A stretch of 45,000 nucleotides of DNA, taken from Aneurinibacillus soli (GTDB lineage Bacteria; Bacillota; Bacilli; Aneurinibacillales; Aneurinibacillaceae). The stretch lies in contig NZ_AP017312.1 of NCBI RefSeq assembly GCF_002355375.1, positions 180,001-225,000 on the forward strand, given 5' to 3'. Shown here one piece after another: positions 11,473 to 17,029 of the stretch. The notes beneath the pieces are model-generated. The model was not told where the DNA came from. It did not search any database and was given only the letters and a program-made list of their open reading frames with translations. Within the stretch, counting starts at the first letter, position 1. Every line of letters starts with the position of its first letter. A program made the position numbers and the translations under genes.

Positions 11473-14400
11473 TTACTCTTCGACACCGCTGATGTTCAGG
11501 TTGAGCTTCTCGCTCGGCGCATCATCATCTTCATCCGTATCGCGCATCTCAATTTCCTGCTCGTCTTCGGACAGAATCTTAACGTCCATACCAAGGCTCT
11601 GCAGCTCTTTAATGAGTACTTTAAAGGATTCCGGTACACCAGGTTCCGGTACATTTTCTCCCTTAACAATGGCTTCGTATGTTTTCACACGACCAACCAC
11701 GTCATCCGACTTGACAGTAAGAATTTCCTGAAGTGTATAAGCGGCACCGTATGCTTCAAGTGCCCATACCTCCATCTCCCCAAAACGCTGACCGCCGAAT
11801 TGGGCTTTACCGCCGAGCGGCTGTTGAGTAACGAGAGAGTATGGTCCAGTCGAACGGGCGTGAATTTTATCATCAACCATGTGGGCCAGTTTGATCATGT
11901 ACATAACCCCGACGGTTACGGTACGGTCAAACGGCTCCCCGGTACGACCATCATACAGAACCGTTTTACCTGTACGGCTCATACCCGCTTCTTCAAGCGT
12001 ATTAAACACATCGTCTTCTGTCGCACCATCGAATACTGGTGTTGCGATATGAATACCCATGAGTTTGGCTGCCATACCCAAGTGAACTTCGAGCGCCTGC
12101 CCGATGTTCATACGAGACGGTACACCCAGCGGATTGAGAACAACCTGTACTGGCGTGCCATCCGGCAGGAACGGCATATCTTCTTCTGGCAGAATCCGCG
12201 CGATAACCCCTTTGTTACCGTGACGGCCGGCCATTTTATCCCCAACAGAGATTTTGCGTTTCTGTGCGATGTATACACGTACGAGCTGGTTAACGCCCGG
12301 TGGCAGTTCATCGCCATTGTCACGGGTAAATACTTTTACATCGACAATAATGCCGGAACCACCGTGCGGTACGCGGAGAGATGTATCGCGAACTTCGCGT
12401 GCTTTCTCCCCAAAGATCGCATGCAAGAGACGTTCTTCTGCTGTCAGCTCCGTTACACCCTTCGGCGTTACTTTACCAACGAGAATGTCGCCATCCTTGA
12501 TCTCAGCACCGACGCGAATGATACCACGGTCGTCAAGATTACGCAGTGCATCTTCCCCAACGTTCGGGATGTCGCGTGTAATCTCTTCCGGTCCAAGCTT
12601 CGTATCACGAGCTTCAGACTCGTATTCTTCGATATGGATTGACGTATATACGTCTTCTTTTACAAGCTTCTCACTTAGGAGAATCGCATCTTCGTAGTTG
12701 TAACCTTCCCATGTCATGAAGGCAACGACTACATTGCGTCCGAGAGCCAGCTCTCCACTTTCGGTAGACGGACCGTCTGCGATAATATCGCCAGCCTGTA
12801 CGAACTCACCGGTTTTGATGATTGGACGCTGATTGATGCATGTTCCCTGATTAGAACGCTCAAATTTGTGTAATTTATATTTATCGATATCACCCATGAT
12901 CGTACGGCCTTCGAGGGTTTCCTGACGGCGAACCCAGATCTCACGGGCTGTTACACGCTCAACAACACCCGGATGGCGAACAACGATCGCAACACCAGAA
13001 TCTTTGGCGGCTTTATGCTCCATACCGGTTCCAATGAACGGAGCCTGCGGTACAAGAAGCGGTACGGCCTGACGCTGCATGTTCGCTCCCATGAGCGCAC
13101 GGTTGGCGTCATCGTTCTCAAGGAACGGAATCATGGCAGTCGCAACGGATACAACCTGCTTCGGTGATACGTCCATGTAATCCACTTTATCGCGTGGAAT
13201 CGTGATGATTTCACCTCGGCGACGGCAAATAACCATCTCGTTCGCAAATTTCATCTCTTCTGTAAGCGGCGCATTTGCCTGAGCTACGTTGAACACATCT
13301 TCTTCATCCGCTGTGAGGTATTCAATCTCCATCGTAATCTGGCCTGTTTCCGCATCAATTTTACGACGCGGTGTTTCAATAAAGCCATACTCATTAATAC
13401 GAGCATACGAAGACAGTGAGTTGATCAAGCCGATGTTCGGACCTTCCGGCGTCTCAATTGGACACATACGACCATAGTGAGAGTGGTGAACGTCACGAAC
13501 TTCGAAGCCTGCACGTTCACGTGTCAGACCACCTGGTCCGAGTGCAGACAGACGACGTTTGTGCGTCAGCTCAGCCAGTGGATTCGTCTGATCCATGAAC
13601 TGGGAGAGCTGGGAGCTTCCGAAGAATTCCTTGATCGCTGCAATAACCGGACGAATGTTAATGAGTGCCTGTGGCGTAATTGCATTCGCATCTTGAATCG
13701 ACATCCGCTCACGAACCACACGCTCCATACGGGACAAACCGATACGGAATTGGTTCTGCAGCAGTTCTCCTACAGAACGCAGACGACGGTTACCAAGATG
13801 ATCAATATCATCTGTTGTACCAATGCCTTGCAGCAAGTTCATAAAGTAGTTAATAGACGCGATAATATCAGACGGTGTAATGTTCTTGATTTTCTTATCA
13901 ATCACACCGTTGGATGTTACTTTGATAACTTTTCCATCTTCAATCGGTGAGAAGATGTTGATAGACTGAAGACGAATATCTTCTTCCAGTACACCGCCGC
14001 GAGGTCTCACATTCACAAACCCTACACTCTCTTCAAGCAGTGGCAGGATGCGATCAAGCAAACGGCGGTCAATCATTTGACCGGCTTCTGCAATAATTTC
14101 ACCTGTCGCTGTGTCTACGAGCGTCTCAGCAAGGCGCTGGTTATACAATCTATTTTTAATGTGCAGCTTCTTGTTGATTTTATAACGACCTACATTAGCC
14201 AGATCGTACCGCTTCGGATCGAAGAAGCGAGACACTAACAGACTCTTTGCATTCTCGACTGTTGGCGGCTCTCCTGGACGCAAACGTTCATAAATCTCAA
14301 TCAGCGCTTTTTCTGTCGAATCGGTATTGTCCTTCTCAAGCGTGTTACGGATGTATTCATCCTCGCCTAGCAGACTCAAAATCTCAGCATCTGTGCCGAA

Positions 14401-15000
14401 TCCTAATGCACGCAAAAGAACCGTAACAGGGATTTTTCTCGTACGGTCGATGCGAACATAAATAATATCTTTCGCGTCGGTTTCAAGCTCAAGCCATGCA
14501 CCGCGATTTGGGATAACAGTAGCCCCATACGCTTGCTTACCGTTTTTGTCTACTTTTGTGCTGAAGTACACGCTAGGAGAACGAACAAGCTGACTGACGA
14601 TTACCCTTTCAGCCCCATTAATGACGAAAGTACCTGTCTCTGTCATAAGCGGGAAATCACCCATAAATACTTCTTGTTCCTTGACTTCTCCCGTTTCCTT
14701 GTTAATGAGACGGACTTTCACTCGCAGCGGAGCTGCATACGTTACGTCGCGTTCTTTGGATTCATCAACCGAGTATTTCGGCTCGCCCAAGCTATAATCA
14801 ATGAATTCCAGAACAAGATTACCAGTGAAATCTTGAATCGGAGAGATATCGTGGAACATCTCACGCAACCCTTCATCCAAAAACCACTCATATGATTTTT
14901 GTTGGATTTCGATCAGGTTTGGTAATTCCATTACCTCTTTAATTCTTGCGTAGCTGCGACGCTGGCGATGACGTCCACACTGAATTAGATGACCTGCCAA
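11473..15000 (-). CDS. rpoB: RNA polymerase beta subunit
   Basis: An 1175-residue subunit that forms the catalytic cleft with RpoC. The N-terminal stretch [17 protein letters not shown] and the rifampicin pocket ([21 protein letters not shown] then LSALGPGGL, around residues 465-490) are wild type at the usual Asp, His and Ser positions. The bridge to RpoC ([20 protein letters not shown]) is complete, and an acidic tail rich in Asp and Glu ends the protein. I chose the TTG at 15000 as start because GAGAGG lies eight bases upstream; the GTG at 15009 overlaps that site. A strong promoter and a structured leader precede it. Confidence 0.98.
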
Positions 15001-15085
15001 CTTATTCACCTCTCAAACCGAGTTTTTGCACAAAAAAGAACAAAGCCTCCCTATGTATGTAAGAAGACTTTATTTTTAATTTAGA

Positions 15086-15144
15086 GAACCGAACACTGCT
15101 ATTATTTAAGTATAACCTTAGACATACAACAGCATACACGGTTC
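15086..15144 (-). other. Structured 5' leader of rpoB
   Basis: In the rpoB leader, GAACCG at one end pairs with CGGTTC at the other, with an inner GCTGTT/AATAGC stem. A different outer pairing, CCGAAC with GTTCGG, uses overlapping bases, so two alternative folds are possible. It lies about 90 bases downstream of the promoter and about 90 bases upstream of the start codon. Function unknown. Confidence 0.5.
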
Positions 15145-15232
15145 GGAGCAACCTGCCTTTAAATTCCGAAAAAAGGGGTTGACTTTTTATGCAATTCCTA
15201 TCTAACGCTCACAAGATTAGTGGCATTAAATA

Positions 15233-15261
15233 ACGATAACACAATGGAAAAGCAATGTCAA
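15233..15261 (-). promoter_or_regulatory. Promoter of rpoB-rpoC
   Basis: A perfect TTGACA (15261-15256), a 17-base spacer and TATCGT (15238-15233). It abuts the rsmC stop codon, so rpoBC has its own promoter with a leader of about 225 bases. Confidence 0.8.
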
Positions 15262-15262
15262 C

Positions 15263-15862
15263 TTATGATTTCCGTGCTCGGAAGATGGAATAGCCCTTTC
15301 TCCGTTCTACTTCCTCTACGTCTTCATACAGCTCCTGCAGTCTAGTAAATGCCGATGGCGCTCCCTGCTTCTTCTGAATCACTACCCAAAGAGAACCGCC
15401 CGGCTTTAGATGCGCATGAGCTTCCTCAAAAATCCCATGTACCACCTGTTTACCCGCGCGAATCGGCGGATTGGTCAAAACAACATCGAACATCCGATTC
15501 TCTGGTACGGAAGCAAGGCGATCACTCACCACAGCCTGGGCATTCGTAACGCCATTCAACTTCAAATTGCGATTGGCTAGCGCGACAGCACGCTCATTAA
15601 TATCCACCATAAGCACCTGCCCGCCTGGAGTAAGGGATGCGGCGGACATACCCATCGGACCATACCCGCAGCCTACATCAAGAACATCCATGCCATCTGC
15701 GATTTCCATCGTTTCAATCAACAGTACACTCCCAAAATCAATGCGATTTTTGGAGAAAACACCCCGGTCTGTTACAAAGCGAAAATCCCGACCGCGCAGC
15801 GTAAACGTAAATGTCTGTTCCCGACTGTCGGCTCCGGGTTGATTCGTATAGTAATGCTCCAC
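15263..15862 (-). CDS. rsmC: RsmC-type 16S rRNA guanine-N2 methyltransferase (YbxB)
   Basis: A 199-residue class I methyltransferase. The SAM-binding motif VLDVGCGYGPMG is near residues 60-71, the acidic strand end VDINERAVA near 86-94, and the catalytic NPPIR motif of N-methyltransferases near 131-135. It corresponds to Bacillus YbxB, found at the same place between rplL and rpoB, which is related to the C-terminal half of Escherichia coli RsmC that methylates G1207 of 16S rRNA. The start is GTG at 15862 with AAAGGGTG upstream. It lies between the rplL terminator and the rpoB promoter, so its expression should be low. Confidence 0.85.
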   Translation of the reverse strand: MEHYYTNQPGADSREQTFTFTLRGRDFRFVTDRGVFSKNRIDFGSVLLIETMEIADGMDVLDVGCGYGPMGMSAASLTPGGQVLMVDINERAVALANRNLKLNGVTNAQAVVSDRLASVPENRMFDVVLTNPPIRAGKQVVHGIFEEAHAHLKPGGSLWVVIQKKQGAPSAFTRLQELYEDVEEVERRKGYSIFRARKS

Positions 15863-17000: not shown

Positions 17001-17029
17001 ATTCTATCAACTTCTCAATCAAATGTCAA
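17001..17029 (-). promoter_or_regulatory. Promoter of rplJ-rplL
   Basis: TTGACA (17029-17024), a 17-base spacer and TAGAAT (17006-17001) with a TGA extended -10. It starts five bases past the rplA stop. Confidence 0.85.

Follow-up and report, generated by a model that had tools for sequence, protein, structure and literature searches.

Terminator-like hairpins before rpoB recur in many Bacilli and probably limit RNA polymerase synthesis

Main

Terminator-like stops before rpoB recur in many Bacilli and probably keep RNA polymerase synthesis in check. In the window analysed here, a stretch of 45,000 nucleotides from Aneurinibacillus soli within which all coordinates are given, we consider it reasonably likely (probability about 0.6) that transcription of rpoBC is limited by an intrinsic terminator in the rpoB leader, probably a partial one acting as an attenuator. 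To our knowledge, how the amount of RNA polymerase is set outside E. coli and its kin is poorly described. An attenuator-like rpoB leader recurring across Bacilli is undescribed in the literature as far as searched: no open paper in the search described a terminator in the rpoB leader of any Bacillales, and an earlier report may exist among subscription papers, most of which lay outside the search, or in supplements.

Results

The rpoB leader and its promoter

The genes on the minus strand of the window run in the order nusG, rplK, rplA, L10 leader, rplJ, rplL, RsmC-like methyltransferase (a match under the curated cut-off), rpoB and rpoC. We take the penultimate gene, encoding RNA polymerase beta, to be rpoB from its protein sequence and the known gene order. 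Upstream of rplJ, the L10 leader (RF00557, 16852–16988, minus strand) scored 58.7 bits, and a promoter-like TTGACA-17-TAGAAT lies near it at 17029–17001 on the same strand. The list of open reading frames starts rpoB at GTG 15009. The likelier start is TTG 15000 (rpoB at 11473–15000, minus strand): the putative Shine–Dalgarno AGAGGUG (15007–15013, minus strand) stands six bases before the TTG, and the GTG overlaps this ribosome-binding site. Throughout the family set of 11 genomes (G000–G010; seven sampled genomes of the genus Aneurinibacillus), the rpoB start region reads GAGAGGTGAAT[A/G]AGTTG.

The leader fills the gap from the methyltransferase stop (15263) to rpoB on the minus strand. Its promoter (15233–15261, minus strand) consists of TTGACA (15261–15256), a 17-bp spacer and TATCGT (15238–15233), with TG before the −10 box; TTGAC[A/T] and a −10-like box occupy the equivalent place in 11/11 family genomes. 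With a predicted +1 at ~15226 and the presumed TTG start, the leader spans 15001–15226 on the minus strand, and the length of ~225 bases given in a first-pass annotation of this DNA is right. It is a real structured leader. The 219 nt from 15228 to 15010 fold at −64.7 kcal/mol against a shuffle mean of −44.4 kcal/mol (z = −4.6), more stably than 200 of 200 shuffles. At the gathering threshold, Rfam gave a single match in the whole window, the L10 leader, and none for the rpoB leader; at a relaxed threshold, 14900–15400 gave two chance-level matches (E = 0.82 and 7.8).

A putative terminator 31 bases before rpoB

The strongest feature of the leader, absent from the first-pass annotation, is a 15-bp hairpin followed by C-U6 (15074–15032, minus strand). 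The hairpin, here called stem-loop 4 (15039–15074), has three G-C pairs and six A-U/G-U pairs at its base, and appears in the predicted fold of all 11 family genomes. Its tail, C-UUUUUU (15032–15038), would complete an intrinsic terminator. Ten of the 11 genomes share both this tail and a gap of 31 bases to the start codon; the remaining one (L090) has C-UAUUUAU and a gap of 47. As at E. coli tL7, a terminator-like hairpin with a U-tract thus lies between the ribosomal-protein genes and rpoB on the same strand. Because only 31 bases separate the tail from the rpoB start in the window, there is no room for another promoter, and rpoB is therefore unreachable without passing the terminator.

For comparison, we used 171 background terminators, our own predictions after open frames of at least 100 codons across 400 kb of the window's genome; these were picked by the prediction procedure, whereas stem-loop 4 entered the comparison at given coordinates. 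At −14.3 kcal/mol it lies close to their median of −13.3 kcal/mol, 59% of them being no stronger. As few as three G-C pairs occur in 2.9% of the 171, and a base of six A-U/G-U pairs, the type described for NusG- or NusA-dependent terminators, occurs in none. By free energy, then, stem-loop 4 is no weak hairpin, so the case for partial termination is its A-U base only. The DNA motif TTCTTT consists of the last two bases of stem-loop 4 plus the tail; it straddles the hairpin end, and the 12-nt tail itself lacks TTNTTT. In other Bacilli, TTNTTT occurs in the last 14 nt of 27/27 rpoB terminators selected by regular expression and in 39/171 of the background tails, which were scored over 12 nt and hence over a different length.

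We also looked for an antiterminator. When stem-loop 4 was forbidden, its arms stayed unpaired in the best fold of all 11 family sequences, at a cost of 11.7–16.9 kcal/mol. A terminator/antiterminator switch or riboswitch was rejected, since no alternative fold captures the terminator arm in these best folds (11/11).

Terminators before rpoB across Bacilli

Regions upstream of rpoB were collected from named species and further Bacilli genomes, mostly one per genus. The rpoB start was anchored in 157 of 170 loci, the other 13 being left out, and 102 non-redundant leaders were drawn from 156; at least three of the loci (L001, L013 and L026) appear mis-anchored and count as misses. A terminator-like hairpin of −8 kcal/mol or lower was present in the 260 nt before rpoB in 70/102 leaders against 41/306 shuffles, with hairpins counted anywhere in the 260 nt and some of the 70 therefore not at the equivalent place. 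At a cut-off of −10 kcal/mol the counts were 43/102 and 14/306; 32 of the 102 leaders fell short of −8 kcal/mol.

The best motif upstream of rpoB in the 102 leaders, in a search run without a shuffled control, was TGnTATTATTATAAAATGYCA, covering the −10 box and the first transcribed bases. The corresponding part of the window (15221–15261, minus strand), promoter and first transcribed bases, is conserved, with an ATG at about +1. A leaderless mini-ORF at this conserved AUG was rejected by eye, as the reading frames differ among leaders. Downstream of the start motif, a search that used 65 of the 102 leaders gave as best motif a terminator, ..AACCCATTTTCTTTTT, with a log-likelihood of 402 against 103–107 for three shuffled sets (the real set was run from 60 starts and the shuffled ones from 25).

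From these leaders, 27 distinct versions of the terminator were extracted and aligned, and a model, R2, was built from the 27 hairpins. The pattern AAAATGWGGTN{2,14}ACCCWTTTT, written after the leaders had been seen, had 17 matches in 200 Bacilli genomes, one each in 17 genomes and all 31–163 bases upstream of an rpoB match (placements checked by eye); its reverse had one match in the 200. Among the best 44 whole-genome matches of R2, 42 lay 24–156 bases upstream of rpoB, and the exceptions were one away from rpoB (G193:C5) and one in a genome without a listed rpoB to place it against (G147). All distances are counted from where the rpoB match begins, which need not be the start codon. Among the best 66 matches, 49 lay before rpoB, and further down the list most were elsewhere. 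Nineteen of the best 44 came from genomes whose loci trained R2, and among the remaining 25 some duplicate sequences of the training set (G060 is the L086 contig; G080, G144 and G114 carry the L030 sequence). Pattern and model were both made from rpoB leaders, so that finding rpoB is partly built in; the scarcity of equal scores elsewhere is not. Of the 43 family labels sampled in Bacilli, 15 had the R2 terminator sequence ahead of rpoB, as compared by eye. As judged from these searches, the conserved sequence of other Bacilli, outside the genus of the window, appears nearly confined to the rpoB site.

Within the window's genus, R2 matched nothing at rpoB, and both pattern and model miss the window's own version. 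The proposed link between the window's terminator and the conserved Bacilli form rests on place, shape and tail; the sequences differ. In the alignment of the shared terminator (A5), covariation is weak, with one pair changed on both sides, because the terminator sequence itself is conserved; RNAalifold gave no consensus pairs on A5.

Leader length and inner sequence vary by clade. A motif common to the leaders between start and terminator was sought and rejected, the best motif of 77 regions being clade-specific. Two sets of short common words, GGnAA...AAUAAUAG and AUGUCAA...UUUUUU, were noted by eye and are unproven. Paenibacillus rpoB leaders (many of L012–L087) contain a clade-specific element near CGTATAATATGTACATTTTGGGCAAATCTAC, between start and terminator, and AAAATGTCA was seen by eye at their start and again some 50 nt later. 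In rpoB leaders of Brevibacillus and f22 (for example L011, L016, L018 and L035), two overlapping, exclusive hairpins are possible in 9 of 18 examined. One is TGGGTTAAA/TTTAACCCA (−9 to −12 kcal/mol); the other pairs AAAAATG with CATTTTT and uses up the first U-tract (−4 to −9 kcal/mol). As candidates for a true switch, these hairpins rank above the stems of the window.

A family-specific domain encloses the hairpin

All 11 family genomes have in common the promoter, a long-range helix (P1), two stem-loops and the terminal terminator-like hairpin. The domain measures 156–168 nt and comprises P1, stem-loop 2, stem-loop 3, a conserved linker around CGGUUCUUCAAAUUAAUAAUAAAGUCUUC that joins stem-loops 3 and 4, and stem-loop 4. 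In the window, the 5′ strand of P1, UUGCAUAAAA (15185–15194, minus strand), pairs with the 3′ strand, UUUUGUGCAA (15026–15035, minus strand), with a probability of 0.74–1.0, enclosing stem-loops 2–4 and taking in four U of the terminator tail. The same two strands form P1 in most of the 11 genomes, and 97% of its cells are paired. Stem-loop 2 (AACCCCUUU...AAAGG.AGGUU; 15148–15183, minus strand) was placed from the window fold and family conservation.

A covariance model of the domain, R1, matches its 11 members by construction. In the window's genome it has one match, at rpoB (E = 8.2e-27; next best 3.1), and a search of 87 of the 170 loci plus the window gave nothing good beyond family members (best other E = 0.45). 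In the R1 alignment, 93.3% of cells pair, against 51–64% with slid partners, and the covariation score is 0.174, against 0.128 for shuffles (0/500 reach 0.174) and 0.068–0.107 for slid controls. Five pairs changed on both sides, all in stem-loops 2 and 3, which is no excess over the slid controls (2–6). P1 and stem-loop 4 are backed by conservation, not by covariation.

The two outer stems are one helix in two registers

The first-pass annotation had drawn attention to two outer stems, and both are present on the minus strand as described, overlapping and mutually exclusive. GAACCG (15144–15139) with CGGUUC (15091–15086) forms the outer stem of stem-loop 3 (15086–15144) and is termed register 1; CCGAAC (15146–15141) with GUUCGG (15094–15089) is register 2, a minor alternative of the same outer stem (15089–15146). 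The two 6-bp stems are a single helix in two sliding registers, a trivial ambiguity that is possible because of an internal repeat, CCGAACCG/CGGUUCGG. In the window leader, register 1 pairs with a probability of 0.98–1.00 and register 2 with 0.002. Enforcing register 2 gives −60.8 instead of −64.7 kcal/mol; stem-loop 4, P1 and the start region are unchanged in both enforced folds. Of 2000 dinucleotide shuffles of the 219-nt leader, 390 contain one or more slipped pairs of perfect 6-bp stems, and the coincidence of registers is therefore unremarkable.

Mutually exclusive helices were not kept in the relatives: the exact second stem occurs in 2/11 family genomes, the window's and its nearest relative (L001), and the exact first stem in 1/11. 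In L001, one register-1 C-G pair has become U-G, and the registers have probabilities of 0.61 and 0.38. A conserved switch between registers is not supported, and the suggestion that the leader could move between two folds falls with it.

Comparison of the relatives, which the first-pass annotation had proposed as a check, bore out the stem and not the choice of register. Across the 11 relatives, the 3′ arm of the outer stem (CGGUUCUUC and near variants) changes little and the 5′ arm differs, as in GUUAUU with AAUAAC (L089). Own arms pair at a mean of −8.1 kcal/mol against −6.4 kcal/mol for swapped arms, and 14 of 20000 permutations that ignore relatedness did as well; own-arm pairing is weak in L003–L006 (−4.3 to −5.1 kcal/mol). 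The register shifts from species to species. These comparisons support the outer stem of stem-loop 3 as part of a real structural element.

Proposed mechanism and alternatives

In the scheme that we infer, which includes termination itself, its partial efficiency, its factor dependence and its regulatory meaning or feedback, polymerase would arrive from the rpoB promoter or by read-through from the nusG-rplKA-rplJL-methyltransferase cluster. What the analysis itself establishes is the promoter sequence, the folds, their conservation, and the recurrence and specificity of terminator-like hairpins ahead of rpoB. Stem-loops 2 and 3 would form first; stem-loop 4 would follow, with its U-tract ending 31 bases short of rpoB. 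There, some of the polymerase would halt, and the remainder would transcribe rpoBC and close P1, which takes in part of the U-tract and so can form only after read-through. Read-through would probably be set by NusG or NusA together with elongation speed, and hence by how the polymerase behaves; this dependence is proposed from the hairpin base, made up entirely of A-U/G-U pairs, and from the interruption of the T-tract as read across the hairpin end (TTCTTT). Synthesis of beta and beta′ would thereby be held down and partly uncoupled from that of the ribosomal proteins. The earlier idea that the leader acts on early elongation would hold in outline, by way of the terminator-like hairpin and not of the proposed switch. 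That beta and beta′ in Bacilli are set by a dedicated, rpoB-specific attenuator whose read-through is tuned by NusG and NusA, with nusG upstream in the same cluster, is a more tentative extension that we regard as doubtful; under it, the termination behaviour of the polymerase would itself set the polymerase amount.

The alternatives differ in what the hairpin is for. It might mainly end the transcript of the ribosomal-protein operon upstream, as an unregulated terminator with enough read-through to feed rpoB. The terminator scan lists no other same-strand site between the methyltransferase stop at 15263 and rpoB, and the best folds contain no antiterminator, both of which would fit such an end. 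However, the terminator lies downstream of the rpoB promoter and must act on its transcripts too, and in other Bacilli the sequence is more conserved than terminator function requires and is nearly exclusive to rpoB; we therefore hold this explanation to be possible but unlikely. Somewhat less likely still is a trans-acting factor or ligand that binds stem-loops 2–3 or P1 and alters termination at stem-loop 4, as in ribosomal-protein leaders. A structured, covarying domain does precede the terminator in 11/11 family genomes, with conserved sequence between stem-loops 3 and 4, but the R1 domain was absent outside the family in the loci searched, the best start-to-terminator motif elsewhere is clade-specific, and no competing fold of the terminator arms appears.

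Promoter and terminator-like hairpin lie ~190 nt apart and both recur in relatives, which would suit a separate small RNA of that length ending at stem-loop 4. We find this improbable: with rpoB starting 31 bases past the tail and no room for a promoter of its own, read-through must happen, and length and inner sequence differ between clades. Least credible of all, and in our estimate very improbable, is control of rpoB translation or of early elongation by a switch between the two exclusive outer stems. The stems exist and overlap, and in L001 the registers stand at 0.61 and 0.38, but in the window they stand at 0.99 against 0.002 with a gap of 3.9 kcal/mol, the downstream fold is the same in both registers, and the exact second stem stands in 2 of the 11 family genomes, a count made on that exact sequence. 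A partial intrinsic terminator limiting rpoBC transcription is the reading that we prefer.

Discussion

A terminator whose sequence is nearly restricted to rpoB, and which 15 of the 43 family groups sampled in Bacilli share, is a concrete candidate for polymerase control. If the preferred reading is true, it would be a Gram-positive counterpart of the E. coli rpoBC attenuator. The Bacilli element is open to direct study in B. subtilis.

Within its own gene cluster, the rpoB leader resembles the L10 leader (RF00557) in being structured, and has no credible Rfam match. Sections of PMC8060035 give, as features of the NusG-dependent terminators of B. subtilis, a weak hairpin that ends in A-U/G-U pairs and a U-tract that is interrupted, and report that NusA or NusG assists most intrinsic termination in this species. 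Factor help being so common, factor dependence alone would not prove regulation. Stem-loop 4 is like these terminators in the consecutive A-U/G-U pairs at its base and, if the TTCTTT that spans hairpin end and tail is counted, in an interrupted U-tract; its dependence on either factor is a prediction. Neither PMC8060035 nor a survey of premature terminators (PMC2965389) uses the term rpoB in its main text.

In mycobacteria, a conserved stretch upstream of rpoB in the rpoB-rpoC promoter region lowers rpoB expression, according to passages of PMC6181997. That stretch differs in lying between two promoters; the same passages describe a feed-forward effect and make no claim of a terminator.

The closest likeness is to E. 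coli, where parts of PMC4670729 and PMC6181997 describe tL7, an attenuator in the rplL-rpoB gap that uncouples polymerase from the ribosomal proteins and whose read-through is raised by rifampicin. The original attenuator papers appear by title in the reference list of PMC9973297, and autogenous control of E. coli rpoBC is noted in part of PMC10931766. Both systems place a terminator or terminator-like element between ribosomal-protein genes and rpoB. Unlike tL7, the element of the window follows a methyltransferase gene and belongs to a leader that has a promoter of its own; in many other Bacilli the element is conserved in sequence. The Bacilli element would act like the E. coli attenuator, and the two are likened by place and action, not by descent.
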